64,000 nucleotides of DNA, taken from NCBI GenBank assembly GCA_950295325.1, contig OX485805.1, forward strand, positions 15,549,501 through 15,613,500, written 5' to 3'. This DNA is from Polytrichum commune (taxonomy: Eukaryota; Streptophyta; Polytrichopsida; Polytrichales; Polytrichaceae). The translations under genes and the position numbers were made by a program. The notes under the pieces are model-generated. The model was given only the letters and a program-made list of their open reading frames with translations. It was not told the origin of the DNA and did no database searches. Shown here one piece after another: positions 18,068 to 51,043 of this stretch. The first letter of the stretch is position 1. Each line of letters opens with the position of its first letter.

Positions 18068-18075
18068 GTGATGAC

Positions 18076-18735
18076 CTATGTTCGGGGAAAACCGACGGCT
18101 AGTTCATTATCAGCCGATGGATTTCCCCTCATGGCCGGTCCAAATTTCCAACCACCGGATGGCAATCCGACTGTAATTTCAATCCTCTGGCAATTAGCCG
18201 ATGGACCAAAAAATGTCCCGGAAATGTAGCCGATTTTTCTTGTGAGTTACTGGAGTTCAGTCGGAAGCATCCAGAGCGCTATTTGTCTGGGGCATTTGAT
18301 GATGCACTTGAGGAAGTACCCTAAACCTTAAACCTTTTGAATTATGCAACCTTTCCATGACCAAATCCAATTGCTTCTATGAAGAATTGGGGGACCCTTG
18401 GCCTTCAAGCGGTGAAGGCATTGCTAGGTTCAATTCCTGCCAAGGATATTAACTCTTCAAATTTAAAGTTTTGAACATGCCTTTCTTTTCACTTATTCAA
18501 GAATTTGTACTAAGAAATGATTTCTAATAACTTTTCATACATTTTTAAAACAATTAGTGTCGATATGAATTCCATTTAATCGGATATTGGCCAATGAAAA
18601 TATGAAAATATAGGCAATTGGCCGATTGATTTTACAAAAGACCGGCTCGTGCCGATGTAAATTGGAAAAAATCCAACCCTTCGTAGCAACTACCGGCAAT
18701 TAGCCACTAAGGCTTCAAAAACTTCCCAAACTCTG
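18076..18735 (+). mobile_element. hAT-like non-autonomous element, copy 1
   Basis: A 660-bp element from CTATGTTCGGGG to AACTTCCCAAACTCTG. Perfect 8-bp target duplications GTGATGAC lie at 18068-18075 and 18736-18743. The left end and the complement of the right end (CAGAGTTTGGGAAG) are only partly similar, i.e. short imperfect terminal inverted repeats. GCCGAT/ATCGGC and GGCAATTAGCC motifs cluster in both subterminal regions, as transposase-binding motifs often do in hAT elements. No ORF. Copies of the same length occur in the opposite orientation at 33642 and 50352. Confidence 0.85.
18396..18445 (+). other. tRNA-like fold inside the hAT-like element
   Basis: A 50-nt block closes with a 7-bp acceptor-like stem CCTTGGC / GCCAAGG. 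It has a D-arm-like hairpin CTTCAAGCGGTGAAG and a T-arm-like GGTTCAATTCC that fits the polymerase III B-box consensus exactly. An anticodon arm is absent. The same block is conserved at 33932-33981 and 50643-50692 (minus strand). It may be a tRNA-derived remnant or coincidence; it cannot be a functional tRNA. Confidence 0.45.
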
Positions 18736-18790
18736 GTGATGACCACATACATCCTTTCTTCACTTTTGTAGCAAACAGTGGATTTTCTTA

Positions 18791-18794
18791 TGTG

Positions 18795-18840
<46 letters not shown>
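18791..18840. repeat. Compound (TA)n(TG)n microsatellite
   Basis: Eight TA units followed by about fourteen TG units. Confidence 0.9.
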
Positions 18841-18843
<3 letters not shown>

Positions 18844-18923
18844 TTATGTATGTGAGCGTTCTCACGTGTTTTACAGTGCCTGCCAAATGACGCTCGGCCG
18901 CTTTAAGATTAAGATATAAAGGG

Positions 18924-19299
18924 GGCCGGTTCACACACGCGTCCCCGAGTCCAAAGTCCCACTTCACCGTGCCAAACTCGGCCGTTGAGGCGCATGCAAG
19001 TGGGGGCTCCCCGTTTCATACGGGTCCCAAGTCCCAAGTGTCACATGGATGCTTACATGGCAACGCTTTTTGGGAGGGGAGGTTGGCTCCGGACTTGTGT
19101 TGAGAGTTGGGTCGAGCAAAAAGCTAGACCCGACTCTCAACACATGTCCCAGTATCTCTTGCATCAAACAATTAAGATCCGACTTTAATGAGTGTAAGCC
19201 ATGTTTTAGTGGTTTCCTTGAGGTTCGGAAGCTGGGACTTTGCCTCCGTGTTGGGACTTGCTAACATGAGTGGGACTCGGGACCCCGTGTGAACAGGCC
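18924..19299. mobile_element. Foldback MITE with GGCCGGTTCACAC ends
   Basis: The ends GGCCGGTTCACAC and GTGTGAACAGGCC are inverted. Homology continues inward (GTCCCCGAGTCC against GGACTCGGGACC; AGTCCCACTT against its inverse). A central hairpin at 19096-19144 has arms TGTGTTGAGAGT / ACTCTCAACACA. Whole-element foldback, ~376 bp. The exact target duplication could not be fixed. Confidence 0.7.
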
Positions 19300-19399
19300 A
19301 TAAGGTATATATGCACGTTGGCTGTAACAAGCACTTCCGGCTCCATGTACACGCTTGCTTGTTGGACAGTTCGTTGATTGTCTCCTTCGCTCCGGTACG

Positions 19400-19770
19400 C
19401 AAAGGTACGTGGGTTTTATTCAGTGCATTTTTCATGTTCTCCAACTTCCACTGATTAGGTTTACACATCGAAACTTGTCTTGCATTAGCAAATCTATAGT
19501 GAAAGGTCAACCAAAAAATAATAATGGATCAAAAATTGGGCCTCCTCTGATTTAGTTATGATCATCAAAAGTGCATGTTTGTTTATTTCCTGATTGAATA
19601 TGTAGGTCCCCCCCCCCCCAATTGTGTTCTCTATTGAGTGTGAATTACTTGATAAAATTTGAAGACGTAGTTCAGTCTCTTTTGAAACGTGTGACTTTAT
19701 GGTGTTTGTCCTTCGACCCTCACCAAACCACACACCAATTAAAATGAAAGTAACCAAATAAACACCCACT
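19400..19770 (+). repeat. Dispersed repeat D2
   Basis: Same landmark order as 13.0 kb: 'GATTAGGTTTACACATCGAA', 'GCATTAGCAAATCTATAGTG', 'TTTAGTTATGATCATCAAAA', 'GACCCTCACCAAACCACACA'. A C run (19608-19619) interrupts it. Confidence 0.7.
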
Positions 19771-19819
19771 TACCTTATTGTGAACCATGAAGATTGTTGT
19801 TTCAAGTCTCATACCCAAA

Positions 19820-19990
19820 GTCGAGATGCAAAAGTTATAAGACATCAAAGCGAAGATGTTTTTTCTCATGACACAATCACATGATCGGCCCTCCCAAATG
19901 TGTTAATTATTGAACTTAGAAGGATGTCTTTACTTCAAGCACATAGTCCAATATCATTGCAAATATGTGTCAATTTGGGTGTATGTTCTT
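19820..19990 (+). repeat. Dispersed repeat D3
   Basis: Landmarks 'GATGCAAAAGTTATAAGA', 'TTGAACTTAGAAGGATG', 'AAGCACATAGTCCAATATCA' as in the other D3 copies. Confidence 0.6.
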
Positions 19991-22189
19991 AACTACATGC
20001 CTATAGATGGATAGATAGATAGATGTTACCACTCAAATATAGGCATATGCATAAGGCTAGTATTTGATGAAGGTCCACATACCGTAGAGCTCGAGTGCCT
20101 AGGAAACAAAGTGAGTATGAATGGATGCATAATATGTGCAAAGTCCTACATGGCATGCCATGGATGGTGTTTCCTATTCTGCCATATTTTGAATCAAGTT
20201 AGGCCTCAAAGAGGTGGGTCAAGAACAACACCATGATACATGACACTTCAAAACCTCACAACCCTTGACTTAGCATAATTTTATTCTTAAAAGAAGGCCC
20301 ACCATGATTAAGATGGAATTGAAATAGCATTTAAATAAGAGCATGGCCATGTGTGTCTTGAACAGTGCACTTGAAGACCCATAACCACACAAATTTGAAT
20401 CTCAAACTTCCATAGTACAACCTTCGGATGAGTCTCAAGGTCCCTTATAATTTTATGGTCATGACCCTTGGTCATAGTTTAAAGTGACCCTAGTTTAAAC
20501 ATATGATCTAGTGTGGCATTAAAACCAATATACCATATAACTTAGAATGATTTTCACGACTTGTCATTTAGCACCAAATGTCATATGACACCTCTCCAGT
20601 TGTCACTCAGTCATTGTAAGACAAACAACATGGGTCAATGATGGCGCAATAAGTTGTCGGCCACATTAAATAAGATGTTTAGTATAGTGATAGGGATCCA
20701 CCCTTTGCATGGGTATATGTGTTTCAATATAACTTTGAGTGTGTTGTCAACAACACATACGACTTTTTGTTGATGTTAGTTGTGTCGCATGCTCTTTGAC
20801 CAAACGCTTTTTAGAGAACACCAACACGGTATTCTTCCCATACTACTATTAGCGGAATAGGAATCGATCATGTGCATGTTCATATCTTCCAAACCACTGC
20901 ATCGGCATCGGTGACCTCCTTGGTAGGGGTGCATGTCGCAACTTGATGGTGGTTTTTGAATGTGCATGATTCTCGACTTAGTGCCGCTTAGGAAGCATTG
21001 AAGATAATATGTGTTGGAGTGATCAAAGGTAACCTAATCACATTATTTCCAAGGTAACCTACTCTTAACCCCTACTTATAGGGAGACTTTGCTATGGATA
21101 GATGAGAGGCATGCTTGCATGCAACATTTTCCCTTTCGTCATGAATGTCCGGGGTTGAATATTTAACCAAATATGGTATGTAAGAGGGGTGGTTATCTCA
21201 TGTATAGGTTGGATTCCCTTTCCGCCAACAATACTTGGTACATATTGAAATACACCATGGGAGAGATTCTATCTTGATAAGAGTTCTTGCCTTGTATGCA
21301 CTGGTGAAAGTGTGGTACATTACATTCAATGAGATTATTGTGAGGAGGATGAAAAATCCTTAACGATAGCATGAAAAATCGTAAAGAGATGAAATTTCCC
21401 AATCAAGAGGGAATCCTCCTACTGCCAAGGAACAGTGATTGGTTCTAGTGCAGGCATGGTATTAATCTCCTGCAACACATTTGCAATGACTCGATCCTCA
21501 ATATTTATGGAGAAGGTTTTTAACATGGATGGATGAGGATATGCTCATATGCAACAAATTCCCCTTCGATATGAATGCTTGAGGTTGCAGATGTAGCACA
21601 AGATGGTACGTGAAAAAGGGCAATAGTCACATGCATGGGTCAGGTACCCTTTCCACCAATCGTACCTCGTACAAGTCAAAAGTCTTCTATAACACATTTG
21701 AAATGAATCGACTACAAATGTTCAGGAAAAGGTTTTTGAGCTTATTTGGATGAGAGGTAAGCTTGTATTTAACATCTCCCTTTTGCTAGGAGTGCTTGGG
21801 ATTGCATAATTGCTAATTTCATAAATTTATTAACATTTTCCTACAAACATTCACAATTTAATCACATGATATTATAATGCATGAAGAGTTTATCCAAGTC
21901 CTTCGTAAATACATATATGCTTTCATGCTATGAAAACGTTCACAATAAGTGTGGTCACCTTTAACAATTATAGCATGTTTTTATATACAAATAATGAAGT
22001 GAACAAAGGCCAATTTATGAATTTTTGTTATTTTTATTCAATTTTCTTGTGATCGCATACTTGAACATACCAAACTGACACCAAATGCTTGTCAAAGAGA
22101 CTATTTACAGTCCAGCGAACTAGTTAGCAACCTTCCTAGAAGGTTTTGGTAAGATGAGAGGATTGTATTTAATCATCCATCAACCACTA
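19991..22189. other. Intergenic, with locally duplicated segments
   Basis: A ~150-bp segment recurs in direct orientation at about 21093-21245, 21516-21668 and, shortened, 21730-21815 (shared: 'GGATGAGAGGCATGCTTG', 'CATGAATGTCCGGGGTTG', 'ACCCTTTCCACCAA'). A GATA run lies at 20003-20024. The minus-strand frames here have no recognisable motif. Confidence 0.45.
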
Positions 22190-22600
22190 ATATGGCCTCA
22201 CACGTATCTACGGTCAACATGGATGAATGGATGCGATATAAGGAATACAACCCTTATTCAATTGCTTTTCTTAATCATATGCCCATACCTGAATGGTATG
22301 TAGGTAGGTATGGCTACAAGAATGGACACCAAAAAACCATGTCTTCAAAAGAGTTTGCACCATGTGCTCAAAATATGATAACCGTGTTAAGCTCAACAAT
22401 CAACATTATTGAGAGGACCTACATGACCATTGAATGAGTATACGAATCTTCACCGAGAGTATGAATAAGATAGTCATATGAGCCCCACAAATTAAGAGGA
22501 AAGTGGTCACGGCCTCAATCTGGATTTGCTAACCATCTCGTACTAATTGCATGTTTCATATCTTAGGAGAAGTGAGTTAGTCGTGGATAAAGTAACCCTC
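22190..22600 (+). repeat. Dispersed repeat D1
   Basis: Same order as the 12.5-kb copy: 'AAGAATGGACACCAAAAAAC', 'AAGCTCAACAATCAACATTA', 'CATGACCATTGAATGAGTA', 'CATCTCGTACTAATTGCAT', 'TTAGGAGAAGTGAGTTAG'. Confidence 0.7.
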
Positions 22601-22789
22601 TAAGCAAACCCAAATTCCCGCTATAAAATCCCATTAGGCCTACGTTCAAGTGTTGACCCAAATTAAAAATCCACACAATCCTAGCCAATGTTATCCATAC
22701 TTGCCATGTGAGACTCCATGTAGATTTTTCATCTACCGAATATGTTATGAGATGTGGTCCAAAACCACCCTCTCGTGTAAACCTAAAGC

Positions 22790-24130
22790 ATGGGAGCTTA
22801 TGACACTCTCAATCAATGAGAATTCAAGGAATTTCATGAGCCATGGCCTCATGGCTTTTGTGTAAAACAAGTCCCAAGACCCATCCACCGTTTAAGCTCA
22901 TATGCAACAATATTTTTCTTTCTCTCACCGGGAATATTTTCATGCAGATTTTTCTTTCTCTCGTCAGGAATACTTTCATGGGATGTGGTCCAAAACTACC
23001 CTCATGTAAACCCTAAAGGAGAGTGCTCATGACACTCTCAACCAATGAGAAGTCAAGGATTCTCAAGAGCCATGGCCTCATGGCTTTTTGGTGTAAAACA
23101 AGTCCCAAGACCCATCCACCGTTTAAGCTCATATGCAACAACATTTTTCTTTCGCTCACCGGGAATATTTTCATGAGATGTGGTCCAAAACTGCCCTCAT
23201 GGAAAGAGCTCATGACACTCTCAACCAATGAGCACTCAAGGACTCTCAAGAGCCATGGCCTCATGACTTTTTGGTGTAAAACACGTCCCAATAAGACCCA
23301 TCCATTGTTTAAGCTCATACGCAACAACATTTTTCTTTCTCTCACCGGGAATATTTTCACGAGACGTGGTCCAAACTTGTCCTCGTGGAAACCCTAAAGG
23401 AGAGTGCTCATGACACTCTCAACCAATGAGAACTCAAGGACTCTCAAGAGCCATGGCCTAATGGCTTTTTGGTGTAAAACAAGTCCCAAGACCCATCCAC
23501 CGTTTAAGCTCATATGCAACAACATTTTTCTTTCTCTCACCGGGAATATTTTCATGAGACGTGGTCCAAACCTGCCCTCGTGGAAACCCTGAAGGAGAGT
23601 GCTCATGACACTCTCAACCAATGAGACCTCAAGGACTCTCAAGAGCCATGGCCTCCATGGTTGTTTGGATGTAAAACAGGTCCCAATAAGACCCATCCAT
23701 CGTTTAAGCTCATAACACGCAACAACATTTTCTTTCTCTCACCGGGAATATTTTCTCGAGACGTGGTCCAAACCTGCCCTCATGAAAACCCTAAAGGAGA
23801 CTACTCACGGCACTCTCAACCAACGAGAACTCAAGGACTCTCAAGAGCCATGGCCTCCATGGTTGTTTGGATGTAAAACAGGTCCCAATAAGACCCATCC
23901 ATCGTTTAAGCTCATAACACGCAACAACATTTTTCTTTCTCTCACCGGGAATATTTTCACGAGACGTGGTCCAAACCTGCCCTCATGGAAACCCTAAAGG
24001 AGACTACTCATGGCACTCTCAACCAACGAGAACTCAAGGACTCTGAAGAGCCATGGCCTCCATGGCTGTTTGGGTGTAAACCAGGTCCCAATAAATAAGA
24101 CCCATCCACCATTTGAGCTCATAATACGCA
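22790..24130. repeat. Tandem satellite, ~195-bp unit, about seven copies
   Basis: The anchor 'TGACACTCTCAACCAATGAG' (or a close variant) starts at 22801, 23030, 23213, 23411, 23606, 23808 and 24011, giving spacings of 229, 183, 198, 195, 202 and 203. Each unit then carries 'CAAGAGCCATGGCCT', 'GACCCATCCACCGTTTAAGC', 'TTTCTTTCTCTCACCGGGAA' and 'CGTGGTCCAAACCTGCCCT'. The first spacing contains an internal partial duplication. Spacings of 183, 198 and 195 are multiples of three, so open frames of 100-124 codons cross unit borders on both strands (e.g. 23013-23360 minus, 23023-23397 plus). These encode repeated peptides and are most likely non-coding by-products. Confidence 0.92.
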
Positions 24131-24877
24131 ACAACATTTGTCTCTGGCTGGCCATGGCCAGGAATAGTGGAGGAGGTTGCAAATGTGGGCCGTGTAGGGT
24201 AGTTTGGGAACGGCAGCTTTATTTCACAGGCAAGGTATGGGCTGGGCTCCTGCCTTCTTTAAATTTCCTTTCCTTCTCCACACACACGAAGTACGTGCTT
24301 GGTAGCCAGTCAACTAACTTACCCACCAGCAGCCAGGCTCATCATAATCGGTTTGTAACCGCAATCCATAACTGCAACATAACTATCAACCATCACTTCG
24401 TTTGATTCCCAAAACATATATATATACATGCACTGTCCTCGCTCCCAAAACTAATTTAGTTACTGTTGAAGCATTCAAGTGATAACCAACCAACTCCCTC
24501 CCTCTGACCACACACACAGCGAGCCTCTCATCTGTCCAATCATCACTAAAAGCTTGACCTCGTACACACTCGTGGTTGGTTCATCTCAAAACGATGACTT
24601 GGATGAGAGAGATTGATGTTGGGGGTCTTAATTTCAAAGCTAATTTTGGAATCGAATAAACTAACGGTGGCTGTGTATGTTTCAGGGTTGGTTTTTTTTT
24701 AATGTTTTGGATGCATATATATAGGCACATTCATGTGCGAGAACTCTGTGTTCTGTGATTTCCGCCTTTCTTTGACCTCCGTATTAGCGATGAGATTGGA
24801 GTGCTTCTACTTGTGATAGTAAAGACATCGTTTCAGGTTCAACAACAAACACGATTGGTATGTATGGTCTATGTATT
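24131..24877. other. Unique-looking segment, no gene identified
   Basis: The low-repeat sequence contains TATATATATACATGCA near 24418, CA-rich pyrimidine tracts and a D1/D2-like tail. The composition resembles promoter or 5' UTR DNA, but I can identify no exon. Confidence 0.3.
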
Positions 24878-25008
24878 AGGTAATCGTTTTATTGGAACTG
24901 TTATCGGTGCAGAACCGGTTATGTCAAGGTGGCGAGCCCGCGGGCGAGCCAGCTTGCTTGACATAACCGGTTCTGCACCGATATATGGTTCCAATAAAAC
25001 GATTACCT
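24878..25008. repeat. 131-bp near-perfect hairpin
   Basis: Arms of about 53 bases: AGGTAATCGTTTTATTGGAA at 24878-24897 and its exact complement at 24989-25008, then TCGGTGCAGAACCGGTTATG and its exact complement further in, then GTCAAG. One short unmatched bulge separates the blocks. The loop contains GAGCCCGCGGGC. A transcript would form a long stem, as in foldback MITEs and siRNA or microRNA precursors. Confidence 0.85.
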
Positions 25009-25259
25009 GACGTAAGCGGTTGGCGTCTTTGTTGAGCCGCGCAGGTGACCTAAACAGTGAGTCACCTGTCACCATAACCGATTTAGATGATCATAACCGG
25101 CTGGGATGTCGAGGTTATCGTATGCAAACATGTGTGCTCAGAGCCAATCGTGTAGTGCCACCTCGGCAAACCAAAGCGGCCAACCGGTTACGTGATCAAT
25201 GAAGATGATTGGGACTCTTCACTTTGACCTCTCAAACTCTATGCATCTCTCATCAACTC
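25009..25259. other. AACCGGTTA-rich spacer
   Basis: A short inverted repeat (CAGGTGAC / GTCACCTG at 25043-25069) and several AACCGGTTA-type motifs shared with the hairpin arms suggest this is part of the same element. No gene. Confidence 0.35.
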
Positions 25260-25470
25260 AGTGATCGGGGAGATTCTTGGGCATAGTCGGTTGAGATCCT
25301 AATGTTTGCAAGTCCAACCGGTTATATGTTGATATCCTCCGGTTTTCCTTTATTAAATTAGGGCATATTCTATAAATTCCTCTAAAATGATCGGTGATTT
25401 TTGTGCAGTCTTGAACTTTGACCGATTATTTCTCAAACTCAACCGGTTCACGTGTAACTAATTGCCGGTT
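25260..25470 (+). repeat. Dispersed repeat D4
   Basis: The best D4 copy: 'GGTTGAGATCCTAATGTTTG', 'AGTCCAACCGGTTATATGTT', 'ATTCCTCTAAAATGATCGGT', 'TCTCAAACTCAACCGGTTCA'. Confidence 0.65.
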
Positions 25471-26708
25471 CTCCCTGGTCGTTGCATCAACTCCATTTTC
25501 GAAACATGAATTGTCAAACTTAACTTTTTGTAATTGTCAAGTTTTCAATAAGCGCCCCCCATTGTAATTCATAGAGTCTCCGAAAATCGTGAAGTTCCAC
25601 ACCTGTAGTCGTCATTTTGTAATTTGGGATGCCTAGAATAGATAGTGGCCAGGTGAGAGAGGAGACATGGCTCATAGCCGTTGGGGAGTTCAACGTGATG
25701 GAAATAGTAAGATTAAAAAGACACATATTTGGGGTTTTTTGGCAAAGGGTACTCACTGCACTCAAGTTTTTGTGTGCCAATCATCATAAATAGGTCAACC
25801 TATAGTATGAACATTGATTGGGAGAGAACCTTGCCTTTGGAAACCAATCACTCCAAATAGCACGCTTGTACCGCACTCAAGTTATCGAGAATGGGTATGT
25901 TTACCTTGTATGACCATTTAATGAGCACAAGAATCTTCACTTTGATAGTGAATAAGATGCTCATATGAGCTCTAAAAGTGCATGAGGATAGTGGCTACGG
26001 CCTAGACTTAGATTCATCAACCATCTCATACTATCTAGAGTAGACAAACCCATTTTTTATACCCCCCCCACACACAATCTCAATACATAGAGTCCTATTT
26101 GGCGTGATGGAAAAAGTAAGTCAAAGGGCACGGATTTGGGTTCCTTGAAAATGACACTAATTATTCCCAAGTTTTTGTTTCCCAATTATCGGAAATAGGT
26201 CGATCTATGTTGTGAATATGGGTTTGGAAAGAATTTGACCTTTAAAAATTTACAATCTACATTTTTTCATGTTAAACAATGTGATATCAATTTCCAAGTT
26301 TGTGGGAAAAAAACACACCCCAATATCACACACGCACTACACTTCATAACAATTAGTAGCAATGCTAGGGGGGGGGGGTACCCTTTGAGTACCCGCAATA
26401 TTACCTCAACAAGAAGGGATAAGTTTGCAAAGCAAGGGTGCATGAATGGATAATTAATCAAATATAGTAGCTTCTAAAAGCTATCAAGGAGGTTTCCAAT
26501 ACGTGTGTCGGGAGACTTTTCCCAAAAGTGCAACTACCTTTTTGACCTCACCAACTTTCCCGTTGCTTTATATTAGAACCATTACCACCACTTGGCATTG
26601 GTTTTATCGTAGAAATTGGCATAATTAATTCTAAGCATTGAATGTAGGTACCCAAATAGATTAAAAAGAGCCTAAGCAAAACTCAAAAGTAGTGCTACCT
26701 TTGCTCTT
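25471..26708. other. Intergenic, old repeats
   Basis: Contains a D1 fragment (25890-26040) and a segment at 26095-26240 resembling 25680-25840 ('GGCGTGATGGAAAAAGTAAG', 'AATAGGTCGATCTATG'), i.e. a local direct duplication. G and C runs at 26060 and 26370. No gene. Confidence 0.45.
25890..26040 (+). repeat. Dispersed repeat D1, fragment
   Basis: Landmarks 'TGACCATTTAATGAGCACAA', 'CTTTGATAGTGAATAAGATG', 'CATATGAGCTC', 'CATCTCATACT'. Confidence 0.6.
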
Positions 26709-26752
26709 GAAAGAGCATCAAACTGGCACATGCCGGTTTGATGCTCTTTTGA
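26709..26752. repeat. Short hairpin
   Basis: AAAGAGCATCAAACTGGC and GCCGGTTTGATGCTCTTTT pair with one G-U-type mismatch around a 4-nt loop. The stem is short and perfect enough to be a microRNA-like or foldback remnant. Confidence 0.6.
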
Positions 26753-27370
26753 GAAAGTCATTCCGGGCTTGCTACTTAATGTTATGTTAGGCTAAATTGC
26801 AAATATAGGTATATCTGTCTACTCTATTCGTGTGTTTCATATCGATTGAGAAGTGGACGTGTTAGGGAAAAGTAACTATTTAAGACCCATCTACTTTATG
26901 ATGTCCGGTAACTTCTACCAGCCCTAAGGGCCACTTCACACACGAGGCTGAGAGCCCATGACCATTACACTTCAAGCACTCTCATCGGTGGAAAAGGGCG
27001 GAGCCGGTCCAAGTTCGCTTCACACTACGCTTGAGGGACCAACAGAGTAAGTGAACGCAAGATGGATGTAAAGTCCACATGGATTCCTACGTGGCATCAA
27101 ATAAATCATGTTTCATGGTCACTTGGACTATTTTCAAAAACCACCTCTTGGAGGTAGGCCCAACACAAAATTGGGAGACCACGGCACTCCAAACGCTCGC
27201 AACCATTGATTTATTCTATTTTATCATGCGTGAGGACCCGCATGGATAGAAATTCATTGAAACATCATTTGGTTGAGGGCCCGGTCACATACAACTTCAC
27301 ACTACACGTGAGGGTCCGTGACCACACTACACGATGTTGGAGGTGTGGTGGGACGGCCTTTGGACACTTA

Positions 27371-27939
27371 GGGTCACTTCACACATGAGCCAAGAACCGT
27401 GACCTTGTAATGGTGAGGACCCTTGACTCTTATCCAAAGGCCGTACCATGGGTGTTGGGAAAGCCATTTTATGTAGTCTTTGGCCCTCAAGCATAGTGTG
27501 AAGTGAGAATGAACCATGTTGCGGGACCATTGCATATTTTGTTGGTGGAAAAAGAGGGGAGGATTTGGTTTAATATCCAAGTTTATCAATTTAAGATAAC
27601 TACTTGGTGGTGTTTGTCTGTCTTGGAATCTGCCATGCAGTTTGTCCTGAAATCTATCATGCTGGAAAAAATATTAAAAAAATCATGGTCTACCGGAATT
27701 TGTGTCAAACCCACCTCTTGGAGGTGGGTCTGACGCAAATTCCGGTAGACCATGCACCCTTATCCACAACTAGCCATGTAGGACTCCATGTAGACTTTTC
27801 ATCCACGAACTTTTCTTTGGGCCTTTAGGCCTTCACCTCCTAGTGTGAAATGAACTTGAACGGTCTCCACCTTTTCGACCAATGAGAGCTCTTACATTGC
27901 CATGGTCAAGGGCCTTCAGCCTTGTGTGTGAAGTGGCCC
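27371..27939. mobile_element. Nested Tourist-like element of the same family, inverted
   Basis: GGGTCACTTCACACATGAG at 27371 and its family inverse ending at 27939 (GTGTGTGAAGTGGCCC) bound 569 bp. TTA lies on both sides (27368-27370 and 27940-27942). Its left-end sequence (GAGCCAAGAACCGTGACC) matches the outer element's right end and vice versa, so it sits in reverse orientation inside its relative. Host sequence 'GACCTTTGGACAC' continues as 'CTTTCTTTTGGGCTCTCAC' after it. Confidence 0.87.
27684..27754. repeat. 71-bp hairpin inside the nested element
   Basis: CATGGTCTACCGGAATTTG at left pairs with CAAATTCCGGTAGACCATG at right. The inner stem ACCCACCTC / GAGGTGGGT closes a TTG loop; only two or three positions mismatch. 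It marks the centre of symmetry of the element. Confidence 0.88.
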
Positions 27940-28114
27940 TTACTTTCTTTTGGGCTCTCACAATTTCATGGTCACGGCTCTTGGCTCGTGTGTGAAGTGG
28001 CCCTAAGGTTATTGTCCATGGCCCGCCCACCCACCAGCTCCTCGTACTACACATTCTCCACCTGGATAGATAGATTGATTCCGGTTTCCGTACGCCAACG
28101 AAAAGCTAAGAAGA

Positions 28115-28141
28115 TACACACACACACACACACACACACAG
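28115..28141. repeat. (AC)n microsatellite
   Basis: Thirteen AC units. Confidence 0.9.
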
Positions 28142-28289
28142 CAGGAAAGGAGTGATGAGCTATGGTTATAGTTCCCATATATAGCTTCTTAACCTTAACC
28201 GCCTGGGCTTGCCCTCGACCAATGAGAGGGCCCCCATGAGCCCCCCCCCCCCACGCTCGGGAGTCGCGACTCGCTAACGGACACCTCCA

Positions 28290-28640
28290 CCTCGACCATT
28301 GGATGGGATCGGTTACTTGTTTCATCCGATGTGGTTGATAGTTGTGAATCGTGAAGATCCGTTTTCCAAAGTGTAGAAATCGGAGTTGGGATTCAAAAGC
28401 TATGAAGGTTTAAAGTGAAGAGAGGTTTTTTTTAATAAAAAAAATGTTTTTTGGAAATTAAAGTGATTACGTATTTAGGTTCGCTCAATTGTGTTTTTTT
28501 TATTGAGTTTGGAATGATGTGTTTATTCTGAGCACATCGTCCAATCTCATCGGACACATATATGTTTTTGGTGTTTGTGTTCAGCTGTAAGCTTTCTTCT
28601 CATTGACCGTCTTGTTATAGGTGTTTGGTTTTTAAGGTCC
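28290..28640 (+). repeat. Dispersed repeat D3
   Basis: Landmarks: 'CCATTGGATGGGATCGG', 'TTGTGAATCGTGAAGAT', 'GATTCAAAAGCTATGAAGG', 'GAGCACATCGTCCAATCTCA', 'TTTTTGGTGTTTGTGTTC'. The same order recurs at 47.15, 54.77 and 55.1 kb. Confidence 0.55.
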
Positions 28641-29214
28641 ACGTGCCCTATTGGCCCCGATTTGGGCACTTGCAATTCCTTATACAAATTTTGCTTGTTG
28701 GATTGGATCAAGAATTGTCTCATCTGGCCAAAGTTCTAAGGCGTCAAAGTGAAGAGTATCTTTGTTTCCAAGTGATTGCTTGGTAGGGCAAAAGAGGAGT
28801 GTTCCAAAGTAGTGGCACCTATCATCCATCCGTGTTGGAAAATCTGCCCCTATAAGTTTGTGGTTAATCCACTTTCAAATGCATTCCACTATACTAATCC
28901 AAGGTCTTTGAAACTAATTCCGGTCACTCAAATGTTATAAAATAAACAACCCCCCCCCCACCTACATGTTGTGTAAGGGTGCCTTTATTAAATGAATGAG
29001 AGATAGGCTCGCGTGCATATTATATTCTAATGGTCACATACATAATTTTACTCATTTGGCTCCCACATCTTTGTGAGGTTGGGAAGATCACAAGAATTGT
29101 GCGGTGCATATGACCACTTCCAAATTCAACATTGAATCCCATAGTCCCTCCCACCTCCATCCCGCCTCAAATATAGAAAGAGGAAAATGACTAAGCGGTT
29201 ATTGTGATAAGGTG
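28641..29214. other. Intergenic, nothing recognised
   Basis: Contains a C run (28951-28959). No gene or element ends seen. Confidence 0.4.
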
Positions 29215-29490
29215 GATGGGTCTTAAGCGGCCTTAATCAGGCCCCTAGATTTGATTGGTATGTGATTCGGTGAGGATCAAAGAGTAAAACGTCATCAAGA
29301 CACATGCTTAAAGAAAGATTGAACTACATCTTCAAATATTAACAACTACTCCACGCTCGATAGTGAGCATAATCATCGGGAGGTACAATGTTCGATTCGT
29401 ATTTGTTAGTCCAACTTGTTTTTGCTAATGCAACATGAGCTTTGTTGTGTAAATCTAATCGGTAGAAATTGGAGAACATGAAACACGAAC
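29215..29490 (-). repeat. Dispersed repeat D2, minus-strand copy
   Basis: Read on the minus strand it shows 'TAGATTTACACAACAAAG', 'GCATTAGCAAAAACAAG', 'CACTATCGAGCGTGGAGTAG' and 'GATCCTCACCGAATCACATA' in the D2 order. Confidence 0.65.
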
Positions 29491-29497
29491 CAAAGTA

Positions 29498-29946
29498 AGG
29501 TAGAGATACCATAAACCGTAAAAATAAGGTGATTCACATTGAAGATGTGGTCTTAAAAATCATGAGATAATTCTCCAAGATAGAAGAGAAGGATCCATGA
29601 AGAATGCAAGTTGTTTCATATTCATATTCCCTGTAAAAAAAAGTTCTACAATTTTTTTAAGTGGAAATTTTGTCAAACCCCCTACTCGTTCACTTGATTC
29701 TCCTTAAACCGAACACGGTAATGCTCATTTCCACACAAAACATCACCTAAACCGGTTAACTCATGAGTACATTCAACTGTGATTGATGATAGTCCAACAC
29801 TCCTAAATTTGGCTAAACTGACTGTAGTACACGCATTTCAAGCTGCCAACCTCACAATTATCAGTTTCAAAAATAACACTCCACTATAATAACGGAAGTC
29901 TATTGCACAGGTAGAGGGTAGTTCACGGTTTATGGTATTTCTACCT
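29498..29946. mobile_element. MITE with AGGTAGARATACCATAAACC ends
   Basis: The 22-bp terminal inverted repeats differ at one base (AGGTAGAGATACC / AGGTAGAAATACC, then ATAAACCGT). TA lies on both sides (29496-29497 and 29947-29948), a 2-bp duplication compatible with Tc1/mariner-Stowaway insertion, though the ends are not canonical Stowaway. 449 bp, no ORF. The internal part of the repeat resembles the CCGTTTATGGTATT ends of the 49.5/56.2/62.8-kb family. Confidence 0.75.
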
Positions 29947-29948
29947 TA

Positions 29949-31234
29949 GCACCCACACACCTTCTTACGTAGGCCCTCCCTCGCTCCGTACGGAAACGAT
30001 ATGAGTGATGGCTAACGGACCATCTTCAAGTCGGTCCTCAGACCAATATTCTTTTCCTCTTTGATTAAACCCTAGAACAGATGTCTATACTTGGACCAAA
30101 GGCCTAGTTCAATCTCTTCGCACCACATGTCTTTTGGTGTCTGTATCTATCCTCACTTCAAAGCCTCGCCAGATACCACTTAAATGTGAGGTGTCCACAT
30201 GAGCACACGTACCTCCCTCAACAAACAAAGCTGGAAGGCTGCGATTTGACTTACTCCACTCACAAAACATGTAAATACACATGCCCATGTAAAATATCAT
30301 ATAGTTTAGCAAGTCTAGTACGACTCGAATTACTACTGCTACTATTCTATTATAAAGACTGGCAGGCATCATACACACATGATATTCAAGTCCAGGTCGC
30401 TCCAGAGTCCAGACGGCAGAAGCCACGAAGGCATTGACGTCGCGTAATTAAGAAAAGCAAAGCATTTTTGCGGTATAAGATATAAGATATATATATATAT
30501 ATATCATCTTGTCTTTGTCCTCCTTCACAATCATTGACATCTGCTTGCCCGCTCTTTGCTCGAGTCTCCAGCTCACAAGATATTGCTGTGTCAAGATGCT
30601 TCCGCAGGAGCTTTGAATTTGCAAGGGAGCCATTGGAAGGCGGTTGGGTTGGAGCCAACTGAAACCGTTTGTGAGTGTATGAGGGTGGGGTGAGTTTGCA
30701 TGTAGGCCGCTCGCCCACTACATTCTAGATAAATAGTGGGTCGGCGGTGTTTTCGTAGACGAGCCGTCAACCAAACCACATTCTGGTGGCATGCTAGAAT
30801 GTGGAGGGTGGTGGAGATGTGCCGCTAGACTTTTCCGTACGTTCGCTAAAGCACGTTTTAATCTACATGTGTTAGTCGTTGAAAGATTCGAAGACCGGTG
30901 GTCTAGTACTCCATCCTTGGTGACTTGGGGGGGGAGGAGGAGGAGGTTAGCAGGTGGGCCCGGATTTGAGAAGATGGAAGTAGCTAGTTGGCATAGACGA
31001 AACCCTACCCCACTAGATTCCATTTACATTTGGGCGAGCTTGTCCTTCTTCCCACTACTATTTGGTGGGCAAGTGGTCTGCATGGGAACTCGCCCTCAAT
31101 AGGATGGCCGGTGCGTTGGCCACCCATAGTATGTTGGTTGGTTGGTTGGCAGGTAGGTAGAACTGTGTATGTGCCCACCGCCCCGTGACAATGGGGTGAA
31201 TATCGATGAATTTTCATTGATAAGTGAGTGTGTA
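29949..31234. other. Unique-looking GC-richer segment, no gene identified
   Basis: Several overlapping frames of 60-110 codons occur on both strands (e.g. 30386-30718 minus, 30791-31102 plus), with no motif or consistent coding signal. Includes an (AT)n tract at 30484-30503 and GGAGGAGGAGG near 30935. It may be a decayed gene or promoter region. Confidence 0.3.
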
Positions 31235-31909: not shown

Positions 31910-33174
31910 TTGGACACTCTATGTGCACAGTATGGCATTAAGTGGGAGTTCCATGGTAAGATACTTTCCCTAGGAGTCACTCTATTTGCTATGCAGAAAT
32001 ATTGTAGGCTTGTGGAATGTATTGCAAGAGGTGGTGTGTGGCATTTCTTGCTTGTTTTGAAGTATTCACTTGAGGAACCCGTCGAGAAAGATATTGTAAA
32101 ACATGTGAATGTTAATGAAAGGAGAGGGTTTCCATGTATGCTCGCTAGTTTGGACTGTATGCTTGACAATATAAAAATTTGTCCAGTTGCATACTAACAT
32201 AACATTATTCACATTCATATCAATGTTCTGTGGGACTCAAAATATTCCATGATATTCCCACATTCATATTGAATGTGAGGATATCGTGGAATCTTTTTGT
32301 GGAATATTGTCAATCCCATAGAACATTGGTATGGATATGAATAATGTTATGAGTGGGCATACCAAGATTGAAAATAATAATGATATACGTGTAATATTAG
32401 AAGCCATTTGTGATCAATCGCTTCATGTTTAGCATGCTTTTCTTGGCACTCCCGGGGGATGCAATGGTATCAATGTTTTGGATTGCTTCCCCCTCATCCA
32501 TGATAACTTGCAGGGTGAATCAAAGGATTAGAAAGATCTTGGGTTAACGTGAATTACTATCCTTGTTATTACTTACTTTCGGATGGAATTTATCCAAATT
32601 TGTTGTGCTTTGTTAAAAATGTCCGCGAACTTGAAGATGAAAAGGCATCTTACTTTACAAAGGCTCATGCCCCAATCACACCAAAGTTTCTGTCCGGTTC
32701 CAGCCGTGAAATTGTTGGGGATTATGTTGAGAAATCGATGTTGGCCCACCACCTTTCAGACTACTACAACTGGAGACGCTGACGGATGGTGTTTGAACTG
32801 GCCGGTGTGATCAGCCCCTCAGGACACCTGTCACAAGGACGTGGAGCGATATTTTGGTGTCTTGCAACAACAATGGGCAATTATTAGATTCTTTGCACAA
32901 AAGTTGCACACGTATGCTATAGCCAACGTGACGAACACATCCGTCATTTTTACATAATATGATATTAAATGAGGTGCTTGGGGAAAACCTTGAGAATATT
33001 GATGAGTGTAATTCAGACAACCCCTTCCAACATGTGCTCACTGTTGAGGGTCTTCAGCAAGGAATTGCTCGAATCGAAGGTTCCAATGAACATGTCTCCC
33101 TCCACGGCGACTTGAAAGGGCATTTGTGGGATGAGAGAGGACAAACTACTACTGACGGATGTGTGTTAGTGTAG
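31910..33174 (+). pseudogene. Degenerate PIF/Harbinger-type transposase
   Basis: Segments in at least four frame states follow the order of plant HARBI1/ALP1-like transposases. (1) 31955-32197: AMQKYCRLVE, then NERRGFPCMLASLDCM, where the last Asp corresponds to the first catalytic Asp, and CPVAY. (2) 32355-32531: VILEAICDQSLHV, a TAG stop at 32430 where the family has Trp, HAFLGTPGG, INVLD (second Asp region), stop at 32529. (3) 32549-32670: NYYPCYYLLSDGIYP. (4) 32829-32940: KDVERYFGVLQQQWAIIRF (catalytic Glu region). (5) 32959-33174: NMILNEVLGENLE and LHGDLKGHLWDERG, resembling the C-terminal helix. A foldback MITE interrupts it at 32198-32351 and ~145 bp of unrelated sequence sits at ~32672-32817. 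Function in the family: DDE-type cleavage and integration at TWA targets. This copy cannot make a full protein. Confidence 0.85.
32198..32351. mobile_element. CATAAC-type foldback MITE inside the transposase remnant, copy 4
   Basis: CATAACATTATTCACATTCA at left, and its inverse with few changes ending at 32351. The arms continue through CAATGTTCTGTGGGA and ATTCCATGATAT, so the whole 154 bp folds on itself. It separates the CPVAY motif from the LEAI motif of the transposase. Confidence 0.82.
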
Positions 33175-33633: not shown

Positions 33634-33641
33634 GTGTTAGG

Positions 33642-34301
33642 CAGAGTTCGGGAAGTTTTTGAAGCCTTAGTGGCTAATTGCCGGTAGTTGCTACGAAGGG
33701 TCAGATTTTTCCCAATTTACATCGGCAACAGCCGGTCTTTTGTAAAATCAATCGGCCAATTGCCTATATTTTCATATTTTCATTGGCCAATATCCGATTA
33801 AATGGAATACATATCGGCACTAATTGTTTAAAAAATGTATGAAAAGTTATTAGAAATCATTTCTTAGTACAAAATCTTGAATAAGTGAAAAGAAAGGCAT
33901 GTTCGAAACTTTAAATTTGAAGAGTTAATATCCTTGGCATGAATTGAACCTAGCAATGCCTTCACCGCTTGAAGGCCAAGGGTCCCCCAATTCTTCATAG
34001 AAGCAATTGTATTTGGTCATGGAAAGGTTGCATAATTCAAAAAGTTTAAGGTTTAGGGTACTTCCTCAAGTGCATCATCAAATGCCCCAGACAAATAGCG
34101 CTCTGGATGCTTCCGGCTGAAATCCAGTAACTCACAAGAAGAATCGGCTACATTTCCGGGACATTTTTTGGTCCATCGGCTAATTGCCGGAGGAATGAAA
34201 TTACAGTCGGATTGCCATCCGATGGTTGGAAATTGGGACCGGCAATGAGGGGAAATCCATCGGCTGATAATGAACTAGCCGTCGGTTTTCCTCGAACATA
34301 G
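33642..34301 (-). mobile_element. hAT-like non-autonomous element, copy 2
   Basis: Same 660-bp unit as 18076 in the opposite orientation. It starts CAGAGTTCGGGAAG and ends CTCGAACATAG. Perfect 8-bp duplications GTGTTAGG lie at 33634-33641 and 34302-34309. The tRNA-like block is at 33932-33981. Divergence from copy 1 is low by eye (a few percent, scattered substitutions). Confidence 0.87.
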
Positions 34302-34309
34302 GTGTTAGG

Positions 34310-35540: not shown

Positions 35541-35853
35541 CACTAGTAGAAAACTATGCCCCAAAAAAACCGCAATCGAAATCGGTTGCGGTTTTTTTGA
35601 CCAACCTGATCTACAATCGCTAAATAATTACAAATTTCTCTTTTATGTTTTGCGATTGCAATTTTTTAAAATTTGAAGCATGTAGTATATGTGTTTTCCA
35701 ATGATATATTATACGCCCCCAACTTCCTAAAATTATAGTCATTAAACCAAAAAAAACAACTTTACAGTCATTTAGCGACTGCAGATCAAGCTGGTCAGAA
35801 GAACCGCAATTGATTTCAACTGGAGTTCTTTTTGGCATAGTTTTCTACTAGTG
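35541..35853. mobile_element. CACTA-type non-autonomous element
   Basis: Perfect terminal inverted repeats of 20 bp begin CACTAGTAGAAAAC, typical of plant CACTA (En/Spm) elements. CCA flanks both sides (35538-35540 and 35854-35856), the 3-bp duplication of this superfamily. Subterminal foldback motifs include ACCGCAATCG / CGGTTGCGGT and CGCTAAAT / ATTTAGCG. 313 bp, no coding sequence. Confidence 0.92.
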
Positions 35854-38966: not shown

Positions 38967-38981
38967 ATTTGAGATAAATTG

Positions 38982-42850: not shown

Positions 42851-43079
42851 TGCCCAACTAACAAGGAACAAGGGTGACCACGTAATGCCCAAGACACCCA
42901 ACACACATACACATGGTTTCAGTTGACCACCGGTCGACGCATTAAACCACATGCTCCCAACGACCTAGCCCCCATTTACATGATGGTGTCTTTCAAACAT
43001 CGGGCCTTGAGCATGGCAAGCAAGTGTTGTAGATGTCTAAGTAAATGATGGAGTTTCTACTTATAATGTATCTTTTCCT

Positions 43080-45229: not shown

Positions 45230-45375
45230 AAAATTGCCGATTAGTTTAGAGTAATTTAGAGAATATACCTCAAACTTATAAAGAGAAACTGAAAGATGTC
45301 AACATGAAAGTGGTTGCTCCTCACTTATGGGCATCTACGAGGCCCTATCCGGGCCTCGACATGCACAAAAATCAG
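45230..45375 (-). repeat. Dispersed repeat D4, minus-strand copy
   Basis: Shares 'GAGAATATACCTCAAA', 'TAAAGAGAAACTGAAAGATG' and 'TCAACATG' with 48.6 kb. Confidence 0.5.
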
Positions 45376-46722: not shown

Positions 46723-46743
46723 GGGGGGGTGGTGGGGGGGGGG
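46723..46743 (+). other. G-rich run with quadruplex potential
   Basis: G7, T, GG, T, then G10. It meets a loose G-quadruplex pattern on the plus strand. Confidence 0.5.
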
Positions 46744-47149
46744 TGCTAGTATCCAGGAAGAAACAAACGAACAAACAAATAAATAAAGAAAACAAAGGTG
46801 CAGTAGTAGTATCGTACGTTTTAGGGGGACGCAATGAACTCCTTTATTGAGACGCGGGGTTTGAATGAGAGAGAGATGGTGCAAGTGTGCACTAAGTGAG
46901 AGAGAGAGAGAGAAGCTAAAACCCTAGCTACTCGAGCTCCCACCCCCCTAACTTAAAGAGTAGAAGCACCGCCGGATAACGGCCCAGTTTTAGGGCCCAA
47001 AAGTCCCAGACCGTGGCATGCAAGAAAACTCCCAAAAAGCCTCACCCACCTTCACGTGACTAACTAAGGAACGTAGGTGTACGTGTTCTCGGTTTGTTGT
47101 TGCTCTAAGTTGAGGCGAGGTATATGTGGCTCTAATGTGGGCACTTTTA

Positions 47150-47300
47150 GACATTTACGACCGTTGGATCGGATCGGATCGGAAATTGTCTCCTGCAGTT
47201 AGCAGTTGCGAAGATTTATCATTTCAAGTTTTAGAATTAGGGTTAAGATGTGAAAGTTATAAGAGTTTGAAGCGAAGATTCTTTTTTGTCCTTCTCGAAA
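47150..47300 (+). repeat. Dispersed repeat D3, fragment
   Basis: 'CCGTTGGATCGGATCGG' (three GGATC units), 'CATTTCAAGTTTTAGAAT', 'AAAGTTATAAGAGTTTGAAG' as in 54.8 kb. Confidence 0.55.
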
Positions 47301-48436
47301 GGTCACCTTTACCCTCTCAGTTTTTGCATACAAGTATTTATTTAGCAAAAATGTTTGCATATCATGTCTCCTCGTGAAAATGAGTCACCTAAATAGCAAA
47401 AGATCACGCACGAGTCGAAGACTCTTTATTTTGGTCAACCTTGTCTCCTTATAAGTTTTGACACCATTTGACGTACATGGAGTTGATTGTTTGTAGGAGC
47501 GATCTTATTGTCCATTGGAATGACAAAGACCCAAATTACAGATGTGAATTGCTTGGCACCCTTGAGATACGTACCCAAAATTAGGCTATCCCATCTCGTG
47601 ATTTTATATTTTTTTTCTTAACAAAATTAAAATGATGTGTCCAATAATTCTAATCAAAAGTAAGTAAAAAGCACCCAATAAAAAGTCATCAAGGGGACAT
47701 CATAGCAAGAAAGATGTATTGACTTTGAGCCTAGACTCGACTACATTTACTTAACAAAACCTCTAGGGGTTAAGTTAAGGGCTCATATATATATACATAT
47801 CGCCTCGTTCCGAAGGTGGACTCCAAGTCTCCCACCGGGAAAGATTCTCCACAAGTACTAACTCATGTCATTGATGAAGTTGACTTAAAGGTGTTGAACA
47901 TACGTTCACTTTGGTGAGGGTGTTGAAACGAAAGGCAATGTTGGAAAAGGACGACTTTGTACTACTTGTAAGGAGTTATAGGAGGTCACATGGATCATGT
48001 GGTGTTGCCATTAGACCCATGACGACATCGAAATCCTTTATCCTTGTAGATTTCTAGAGTATAGCTAGGTGTAGCTAGGTCATTAGTTGTTGTGTTCTTC
48101 CAAGAGAGTGCACCGTGCTTTCGAGGGTGATCTCCGAGGCCCATATGGGAGAATGACCAACAACACAATCTCTAGAACCGAGTGTGTCGTTGGAAAGTTG
48201 ATGTTTGTTACTTCCTTTGCTCTCCAAAGTGTTCATTCAATGAAACATGTAGGACTCGATAAGTAGCTCACAATCTAACATCTCAAAATTGAAATTCCAT
48301 GATGTTTTTCTATACTATAAGAAATAAATAGTATCACGATGATGTTTTCTACATCAATATGAGTTGTTGCAAATACCGTGAGATTGAGGGATGTGGTCAT
48401 CAACATCAAATAATCAAACTAGTGTAGCTTGCAAAG

Positions 48437-48462
48437 CGAAGATCACACGTGTGTGATCTTCG
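48437..48462. repeat. Perfect 26-bp palindrome
   Basis: CGAAGATCACACG followed immediately by its exact complement. No spacer. Confidence 0.95.
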
Positions 48463-48499
48463 GGATGACATTCGTTGCTACTACGTGGAGTAGTTTTGG

Positions 48500-48710
48500 T
48501 AAACCAAGACCGAGGGAATACTTGCAAAAAAATAACTGGTCGGAATTCATTACTTCATGAAAATTTCCGATCATTTTAGAGGAATCTATGGAACATACCT
48601 CAAATCGATAAAGAGAAACCGAAAGATAGCAACATGTACGTGGTTGGAACTTGGAAACATTAGGGTTTTGACCCATTATGATGCCCAAAAATCTCCCCGG
48701 ACACTCCATC
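48500..48710 (-). repeat. Dispersed repeat D4, minus-strand copy
   Basis: On the plus strand: 'CCGATCATTTTAGAGGAAT', 'AACATACCTCAAATCGATAA', 'GATAGCAACATGTACGTGG', 'CCCAAAAATCTCCCCGGACA'. These are complements of the D4 landmarks. Confidence 0.6.
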
Positions 48711-49500
48711 TTGTTTGCTCCTCTACGTTGCATGTACATGCATTGGCTCTCACCATCCCCCAAAGCTCCCAACCACAACCCCCGTTCAAGTTACCAAAAG
48801 TTATACTCGCAAAAGTTGCACATGCACCAAGTTTTGAATAATTTGTTTGTTTGTTTGTTGTGGCACGTACAATGCACAAAAATATCATTGTTAAGAGAAA
48901 CTTAAAATAGGCATTATGCCATCCCCATCCTTCATAACCACATGATCATGGATAAGAGTTGGTCAACGGACATCCCATGTCAATGTAAAAACATTGACGT
49001 TGTTTTCTCTTTCTTTTCTTGTTTTGTAGGTGAACGAACATGCTCAAAGTGGATGGATGGAGGGGTTCATTTTGGATGACACGTGTATGAGGTCTTCCAT
49101 GCCAGAGTTTGAGCGTTCTCTATGAAGTTGTCTCCATGCCAACAAATACAAGGTCCTTAACCCTTAAAGGACAATGCTGCCCCACGGGCTTGGTATTATT
49201 TTGGGAGAATCTTGTTCAAAACTTCTACTCCATTGCATCAAATGGGGCTTTTAGAATGCCAAATCGAGCACCTTAACAAGATCTATACTTCTTTAGAATA
49301 GAGCCTATGTAAATTAATTGGTTAATCATGCTTAAAATGAATTTTATAAGATATTTTGGGTGTGGTATCGGGAAAGCATATGTCCTTTAAGGGTTAACAA
49401 ACAATATTTAAGCATAACCAAAGCACCACTTTGGTTTATGCCATGTGATTTTATCTATTGTTAGATATGTTAAAGTCTAAATTGGGATCAAACACCCCGA
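48711..49500. other. Intergenic, nothing recognised
   Basis: Contains a (TTTG)n run near 48843-48858. A 94-codon frame on the plus strand (48557-48841) lies in repeat DNA. No gene. Confidence 0.4.
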
Positions 49501-49771
49501 ACTACTCTACACCATTTATGATAATTAGTGTCGCGCACCGAATTACTCTATTTGCAAAGGGCCTACACTACATGCTTAAGATAGGCATGCACCTCGTAAC
49601 ACTATTGAACCCACTCATGCCAAGATATCAGTAAGCGCACTTGAACGCCAAGTGTCATGAGGTGACACTTATGATAAAGTTGGTATTCATCACTGTAACC
49701 TAGCATACACCTCAAAATGGGGTAAGTGACACTATTACGCATGTGACACTAAACACCATAGACGGAGTAGT
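49501..49771 (+). mobile_element. GTGACACTAAA-type element, short copy
   Basis: ACTACTCTACACCATTTATG...TTAGTGTC at left, and its inverse (GTGACACTAAACACC...GGAGTAGT) at right. The internal block 'CCAAGTGTCATGAGGTGACA' is shared with 56.2 and 62.8 kb. At ~271 bp it lacks the middle part present in the other two, so it is a deletion derivative. Target duplication not fixed. Confidence 0.72.
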
Positions 49772-50343
49772 GAACCTAAATTGGGATGAATTAGCAACCA
49801 ACCTACAGGGGTCGGTTTTTACCTTTACCCCCTCAACGGGTTTTAAGGAACCAAAGTGTTCATGCTTCCTGATCAGTGCTAGCAGTATTAGAAAATGTGG
49901 TCTTAGAACATTCCTAGTCCACTCTTTAACAATGATTGTTATAGATTGGACTTGACACATATAAACGGCGTTAGTTTGTCTACCCCTACGAAATTGAAAG
50001 CGTGTTCTAGCTAGACCCCACAATCCTAATGAGTTAGTGTTGACTAAGTTAATTAGGTATGTTTTCTTACGAAGCCAAGGCTCATTATAATTAAGTTCGG
50101 AGGGGATTTAATTCAAACCGGTGACCCCGATTCAATGAGGGATTCCATGCACAGGGTCAAGAATGTCAGCAATATTCTTGCGCAACAGGTAGCTTTACCA
50201 ATCCGGATTCCGGATAGGCCTGAGGTGGAGATGCTCTTTTGGGCAGGGAAAAAAAATAAAAAAAATAAAAATACTGACTACACATAAGGCATGTGGGGCC
50301 TTTATAATTGACATTTGCGACTCTGCCATTGGAAGTGCTATCC
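49772..50343. other. Intergenic, nothing recognised
   Basis: No gene. It includes an A-rich (AAATAAA)n tract at 50250-50272. Confidence 0.35.
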
Positions 50344-50351
50344 GCCAGCAC

Positions 50352-51012
50352 CAGAGTTGGGGAAGTTTTTGAAGCCTTAGTGGCTAATTGCCGGTAGTTG
50401 CTACGAAGGGTCGGATTTTTCCCAATTTACATCGGCAAGAGCCGGTCTTTTGTAAAATCAATCGGCCAATTGCCTATATTTTCATATTTTCATTGGCCAA
50501 TATCCGATTAAATGGAATTTATATTGGCACTAATTGCTTAAAAAATGTATGAAAAGTTATTAGAAATCATTTCTTAGTACAAGATCTTGAATAAGTGAAA
50601 AGAAAAGGCATGTTCAAAACTTTAAATTTGAAGAGTTAATATCCTTGGCAGGAATTGAACCTAGCAATGCCTTCACCGCTTGAAGGCCAAGGGTCCCCCA
50701 ATTCTTCATAGAAGCAATTGGATTTGGTCATGGAAAGGTTGCATAATTCAAAAAGTTTAAGGTTTAGGGTACTTTCTCAAGTGCATCATCAGATGCCCCA
50801 GACAAATAACGCTCTCGATGCTTCTGGCTGAAATCCATTAACTCACAAGAAGAATCGGCTACATTTCCGGGACATTTTCTTGTCCATTGGCTAATTGCCG
50901 GAGGATTGAAATTACAATCGGATTGCCATCCGATGGTTGGAAATTTGGACCGGCCATGAGAGGAAATCCATCGGCTGATAATGAACTAGCCGTCGTTTTT
51001 CCCCGAACATAG
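50352..51012 (-). mobile_element. hAT-like non-autonomous element, copy 3
   Basis: A 661-bp copy of the 18076/33642 element, starting CAGAGTTGGGGAAG and ending CCCCGAACATAG. The 8-bp flanks GCCAGCAC (50344-50351) and GCCGGCAC (51013-51020) differ at one base. The tRNA-like block is at 50643-50692. No ORF. Confidence 0.87.
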
Positions 51013-51043
51013 GCCGGCACCACCTAGTTAAGCGCGTACTAAA

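Follow-up and report, generated by a model that had tools for sequence, protein, structure and literature searches.

The stretch of Polytrichum commune DNA analysed here (64,000 nucleotides of contig 3, positions 15,549,501-15,613,500, hereafter the window) carries three nearly identical segments which, very probably, are insertions of one non-autonomous hAT family with Ac-type target preference, resembling Ds or the hAT miniature inverted-repeat transposable elements (MITEs). Membership in hAT is argued from four features displayed by these segments: the target duplication, short terminal repeats, the target preference and subterminal repeats. The family also has the usual traits of MITEs and other non-autonomous elements, being short, of uniform length, present in many copies and devoid of recognisable coding sequence. 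An earlier note, made from the letters of the window alone, had proposed a hAT-like nature, and the genome-wide examination of ends and duplications supports it, having favoured hAT over a family with 3' ends or duplication lengths that vary.

The three copies lie where the earlier note had placed them, correct to the base, with near-equal lengths of 660, 660 and 661 bp (Table 1). Over the full length, identity is 96.5% between copies 1 and 2, 95.5% between copies 1 and 3 and 95.8% between copies 2 and 3, with a single 1-bp indel. Each is bordered by the 8-bp duplication already reported for it, matching at 8/8 positions in copies 1 and 2 and at 7/8 in copy 3. When duplication lengths from 4 to 12 were tried on the three copies, the match appeared at length 8 alone, the runner-up being 8/11 in copy 3. 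As a control, 660-bp spans were placed arbitrarily in the window (n=63,100); 8/8 was obtained in 3 spans and at least 7/8 in 53, so that three successive duplications at boundaries fixed by homology are not due to chance. A BLAST comparison of the copies with the window (E up to 0.1) revealed no fourth copy, the sole extra match being of 19 bp, and the family tips searched outside the three copies (up to 3 mismatches per 14 bp) formed no recognisable pair. The copies appear locally clustered, three per 64 kb compared with an average of about 0.2 per 64 kb (1,087 candidates in 407.8 Mb).

The assembly (407.8 Mb, 64 contigs) was searched with copy 1 as query, giving 1,087 first-look candidates, of which 40 were scored. 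These 40 matches lie on contigs 1 to 7 with identities of 97-100%; query positions 1-660 are aligned in 37 of them and 3-660 in the other 3. Thirty of the 40 were retrieved with their flanks (L001 being window copy 1) and joined to window copies 2 and 3 in a set of 32 copies. As 30 of the 32 are best-scoring matches, the divergence, duplication and length figures lean to young, intact copies. Lengths range from 657 to 661 bp in all 32 copies, which have both ends in common with at most 3 mismatches per 24 bp. The duplication matches at 8/8 in 25 copies and at 7/8 in 5, and for lengths of 9, 10 or 11 no full or all-but-one match was found in any of the 32. Constant ends and 8-bp duplications, which the earlier note proposed to seek in hundreds of copies, are therefore borne out in this sample of 32, where ends are fixed and 30 copies match at 7/8 or better. 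The high copy number that it anticipated is seen both in the first-look candidates and in the exact right-end 18-mer, present at 398 genome sites (192 forward, 206 reverse; 0 for the reversed-pattern control). Only 22 copies of the aligned 32, and a single window copy out of three, end in this exact 18-mer, so the family probably exceeds 398 members.

Target preference was derived from the 30 copies whose duplications match at 7/8 or better. T occupies position 2 in 18/30 (binomial 0.0007 against window base content) and A position 7, also in 18/30 (binomial 0.0006 against the same content), while G or C is found at position 1 in 25/30 (binomial 1e-6) and at position 8 in 26/30 (2e-7). A preference of the form nTnnnnAn is a mark of the Ac group. 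It is the type reported for the hAT transposon Hermes (PMC10368747); Buster-type elements, Mar among them, have nnnTAnnn instead.

The terminal repeats, although short and asymmetric, are real. The 32-copy consensus starts with CAGAGTTCGGGAAG and its opposite end, read inward, is CTATGTTCGGGGAA (family end sequences: left CAGAGTTCGGGAAGTTTT, right GGTTTTCCCCGAACATAG). On this consensus CAGAGTTCGGG and CTATGTTCGGG match at 8/11 positions, a score equalled by a fraction of 0.0011 of 20,000 shuffles, and the core GTTCGGG is perfect over 7 bases in a row, which a fraction of 0.001 of 20,000 shuffles reached. With the three-copy consensus the match is 7/11 (shuffle fraction 0.008), base 8 being T, C and G in copies 1, 2 and 3. 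These repeats had been called very weak on the basis of CAGAGTT and CTATGTT; that comparison stands, at 4/7, but the judgement was somewhat overstated, since GTTCGGG continues on both sides to give 8/11. The ends of hAT elements follow the pattern C/T-A-A/G-N-G, their usual tips being CAnnG, and the left end CAGAG matches this pattern; the right end departs from it. The terminal inverted repeats of hAT elements are relatively short, 5-27 bp (PMC3517528), as is the 8/11-bp repeat of this family.

Both subterminal regions carry repeats of the hexamer ATCGGC, present at six consensus positions (80, 110, 172, 502, 534 and 618), always within 180 bp of an end; ATCGG or its complement is found eight times, likewise never more than 180 bp from an end. 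Six ATCGGC were not attained in any of 1000 dinucleotide shuffles. In a stricter test, where the best k-mer with at least 3 G or C was taken from each of 500 shuffles, the observed hexamer count was equalled in 2/500. The window holds 28 ATCGGC in total, of which 15 are inside the three copies (5, 6 and 4 in copies 1, 2 and 3), and 26 of the 27 CGG of the consensus lie outside positions 191-460. By analogy with maize Ac, ATCGGC is a candidate transposase-binding motif. CGG-binding proteins of hAT origin, described in the source for animals and fungi and not for plants, usually prefer CGG or CGC (PMC8097297).

Within the window, Pfam was applied to one plus-strand frame each of 1-14997 and 15000-29996, to the six frames of copy 1, to a lipase-like frame and to 10 selected frames. 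The six frames of copy 1 gave one match, with an E value of 0.032, below cut-off. In Rfam (E up to 10), copy 1 had just two hits (E 3.8 and 9.4), both far below their cut-offs, and no tRNA. A 73-codon open frame present in all three copies was considered as a gene; its start falls within the subterminal repeats, PDB gave no match to the copy-1 frame (E up to 10), and it was taken as chance. A tRNA-like stretch in the middle of the element was rejected as well, with no Rfam tRNA match and no tRNA found in the window by ARAGORN. A string looking like a tRNA B-box was spotted, by eye only, near 18428-18438, close to consensus positions 301-360. This last interval is the least variable 60 bp among the 32 copies (7 derived states versus 16.9 expected); selection on it is not claimed, because a minimum this low arose in 73 of 1000 permutations. 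Folded as single-stranded DNA, copy 2 gives a better structure than each of 20 shuffles (z -3.8).

The three window copies are distinguished by 38 two-state differences, one three-state site and one indel, the private changes of copies 1, 2 and 3 numbering 12, 10 and 16. Of the two-state differences, 23 are transitions and 15 transversions; C>T or G>A accounts for 16 of the 38, including 6 at CpG. Divergence from the 32-copy consensus has a median of 1.2% (range 0.9-2.4%), in agreement with the family being fairly recent, as the earlier note had it, with the reservation that the sample is biased to best-scoring copies. It would have spread fairly recently from one or a few near-identical sources.

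Table 1. Position of the three copies in the window and of the features associated with them
Feature	Position	Strand	Description	Basis
Copy 1	18076..18735	-	660 bp; left end CAGAGTT.. from 18735, right end ..ACATAG to 18076	alignment and ends
Copy 2	33642..34301	+	660 bp	alignment and ends
Copy 3	50352..51012	+	661 bp, one inserted A	alignment and ends
Target duplication, copy 1	18068..18075 and 18736..18743		GTGATGAC/GTGATGAC	8/8
Target duplication, copy 2	33634..33641 and 34302..34309		GTGTTAGG/GTGTTAGG	8/8
Target duplication, copy 3	50344..50351 and 51013..51020		GCCAGCAC/GCCGGCAC	7/8
Left terminal repeat, copy 2	33642..33652	+	CAGAGTTCGGG	
Left terminal repeat, copy 1	18725..18735		base 8 is T	
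Left terminal repeat, copy 3	50352..50362		base 8 is G	
Right terminal repeat, copy 2	34291..34301	-	CTATGTTCGAG	
Right terminal repeat, copy 1	18076..18086		CTATGTTCGGG, as in the family consensus	
Right terminal repeat, copy 3	51002..51012		CTATGTTCGGG, as in the family consensus	
Left subterminal array, copy 2	33721..33818	+	ATCGGC at 33721, 33751, 33813	
Right subterminal array, copy 2	34143..34264	+	ATCGGC at 34143, 34175, 34259	
73-codon open frame, copy 1	18103..18321	+		
73-codon open frame, copy 2	34056..34274	-		
73-codon open frame, copy 3	50767..50985	-		

By analogy with Ds, the family itself would make no transposase and would be mobilised in trans. A hAT transposase encoded elsewhere in the genome may bind the ATCGG repeats and cut the element at its terminal repeats, and the element would then be re-inserted across an 8-bp staggered cut. 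The search for such an enzyme gave 1,060 candidates in the genome for the hAT dimerisation domain PF05699; 150 were scored, all of them above cut-off, and 54 of these loci were examined, 30 with 1.5 kb on each side, 4 with several kb and 20 with roughly 2 kb of downstream sequence. An autonomous hAT with the same terminal ~20 bp, which the earlier note suggested looking for, was not found among the 54. When the ends and the consensus were compared with these loci by BLAST, all matches were weak; those in L053 (33 bp, E 0.056), L064 and L069 were the best. The match in L064 (27 bp, 85%, E 0.007) is situated downstream of a 716-aa hAT frame, at a distance of 1.2 kb; its local alignment score of 40 is below the maximum of 42 given by 30 shuffles. 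Local alignment of the right 120 bp gave scores of 45 for L063, 44 for L069, 42 for L048 and 41 for L073, which were equalled by 6, 1, 3 and 5 of 200 same-locus shuffles respectively; these values are unremarkable among 54 loci. The family ends are also absent from L061 and L062.

Some of these loci deserve mention for themselves. L061 (865-4092, minus strand) has a hAT frame of 1075 aa in which DUF659 and hAT dimerisation domains are present. Among the hAT matches, an open frame of 1084 aa recurs in four rows and one of 420 aa in six, which may point to hAT families with recent activity; at the loci checked for them (L061, L062), the ends of the present family are absent. L069 contains at 629-1275 a foldback element with long inverted repeats and tips AATGAACGGGGAGAACCG, showing 72% identity over 47 bp to the right end of the family (E 0.001); possibly, it is a related MITE family.

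Several observations weigh against the assignment to hAT. CTATG at the right end does not fit CAnnG, its second base being T, and the first four bases of the two ends share C alone. In the stricter shuffle test the pentamer count was equalled in 13/500 and the heptamer count in 243/500. Two of the 32 copies display duplications of 5/8 only. Lastly, neither exact 11-bp tip was present at any of the 54 hAT loci examined (from 150 scored and 1,060 candidates, most being read over 1.5-2 kb). The family could be a non-autonomous element of another superfamily with 8-bp duplications (P-like, Merlin-like or Mutator-like): duplication length by itself is not discriminating, CTATG is atypical of hAT, and no transposase was linked to the family ends at those 54 loci. 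We consider this improbable in view of the nTnnnnAn target preference, the CAGAG left end, the Ac-like subterminal arrays of CGG-containing hexamers, the abundance of hAT transposase sequence in the genome and the lack of matching duplications of 9 to 11 bp in the 32 copies. The low probability is similar for a more elaborate version of the hAT assignment, in which the lineage would have functionally asymmetric tips (CAGA.. versus CTAT.., where those of hAT elements are usually matched) and a selected central block at 301-360, for example a transcription or silencing-escape module raising copy number.

A SINE-like retroposon family (SINE, short interspersed nuclear element), whose 8-bp duplications would be mere happenstance, could draw on the B-box-looking string and on the low variability of positions 301-360, although permutations can equal the latter. 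Ends fixed in 32 copies, the absence of any tail, a duplication of 8 bp in 30 of the 32 and the negative tRNA searches (Rfam with copy 1, ARAGORN in the window) make it very unlikely. The presence of three copies within 64 kb could also evoke segmental or tandem duplication of host DNA. The 300-bp flanks of the three copies are mutually unmatched (E up to 0.001): those of copy 1 have TG repeats alone in common with other places, and about 20 bp past the duplication of copy 3 an unrelated dispersed repeat begins. Every copy is flanked by an 8-bp duplication of its own and the 40 scored copies are spread over several contigs, so we give host duplication hardly any credence. Transposition of a non-autonomous hAT family remains by far the preferred explanation.

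Other repeats surround these insertions. A foldback element at 35541-35853, with tips CACTAGTAGAAAA...TTTTCTACTAGTG and CCA on either side, resembles a MITE of CACTA type having a 3-bp duplication. Two fragments of a plant transposon protein (PF04827; 31907-32194, E 2.3e-7, and 32519-32779, E 4.8e-5), presumably PIF/Harbinger-like, precede copy 2 by 0.9 to 1.7 kb. Two palindromic elements, at 13830-13997 and 32198-32351, share the tips CATAACATTAT; no exact duplication of at least 7 bp was found within 12 bp of these. A tandem array at 22738-24143 is composed of 1.9 units of 231 bp followed by 4.7 units of 202 bp. Six near-palindromic segments (3962-4320, 16234-16849, 24878-25008, 27684-27754, 52314-52401 and 61370-61575) are perhaps old foldback elements; those at 27684-27754 and 52314-52401 gave weak matches to microRNA precursor families, well below cut-offs. 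A 406-codon frame at 1122-2339 on the plus strand, with weak similarity to alpha/beta hydrolases, its matches to Hydrolase_4 (E 0.0002) and Abhydrolase_6 (E 0.0015) both lying below cut-off, and no PDB match, is likely a host gene exon.

A text search of the literature with the strings CAGAGTTCGGG and CTATGTTCGGGG gave 5 papers and 1 paper respectively, with no transposon paper by title and a grass microsatellite paper among the carriers, and an exact 31-base pattern near the left end had 0 matches in viral contigs. That no transposon paper with its ends appeared in the literature searched faintly hints that the family may be undescribed. It is an element of an ordinary kind and leaves knowledge of hAT elements unchanged. 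As a clean non-autonomous hAT family whose ends are exactly placed, and which has a target logo and the candidate motif ATCGGC, it will aid annotation of this genome. It can serve as bait for tracing the autonomous partner, and every insertion, with its defined 8-bp footprint, can be scored as a presence/absence marker.

The closest parallel is with maize Ac/Ds. In the account consulted, Ac has an 8-bp duplication, 11-bp terminal repeats and the transposase-bound AAACGG repeated up to 200 bp from its ends, and Ds1, under 500 bp, has little more than those features in common with it (PMC3260210). The family resembles this system in its 8-bp duplications, 11-bp terminal repeats, hexamer repeated in the terminal 200 bp and short length. 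It differs in that its hexamer is ATCGGC/ATCGG instead of AAACGG, in that its terminal repeats match at 8/11 only, and in being 660 bp long, whereas Ds1 stays under 500 bp. Its consensus holds six ATCGGC, while AAACGG is sparse in Ds1, at least three being found in only 17 of 331 Ds1 elements of B73 (PMC3260210). Like the insect hAT Hermes, the family combines an 8-bp nTnnnnAn duplication, imperfect terminal repeats and subterminal repeats arranged differently at each end (PMC10368747), but its host is a plant, it is non-autonomous and it carries another motif. The Drosophila hAT MITEs Mar and Vege (610 and 884 bp), described as non-coding with 11- and 12-bp terminal repeats and 8-bp duplications (PMC3517528), are likewise similar; Mar, however, has the Buster-type target nnnTAnnn, whereas our family favours nTnnnnAn. 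Finally, BniHAT-1 and BniHAT-2 of Brassica nigra, to which it is likened by description only, are also high-copy plant hAT MITEs (PMC7385995).

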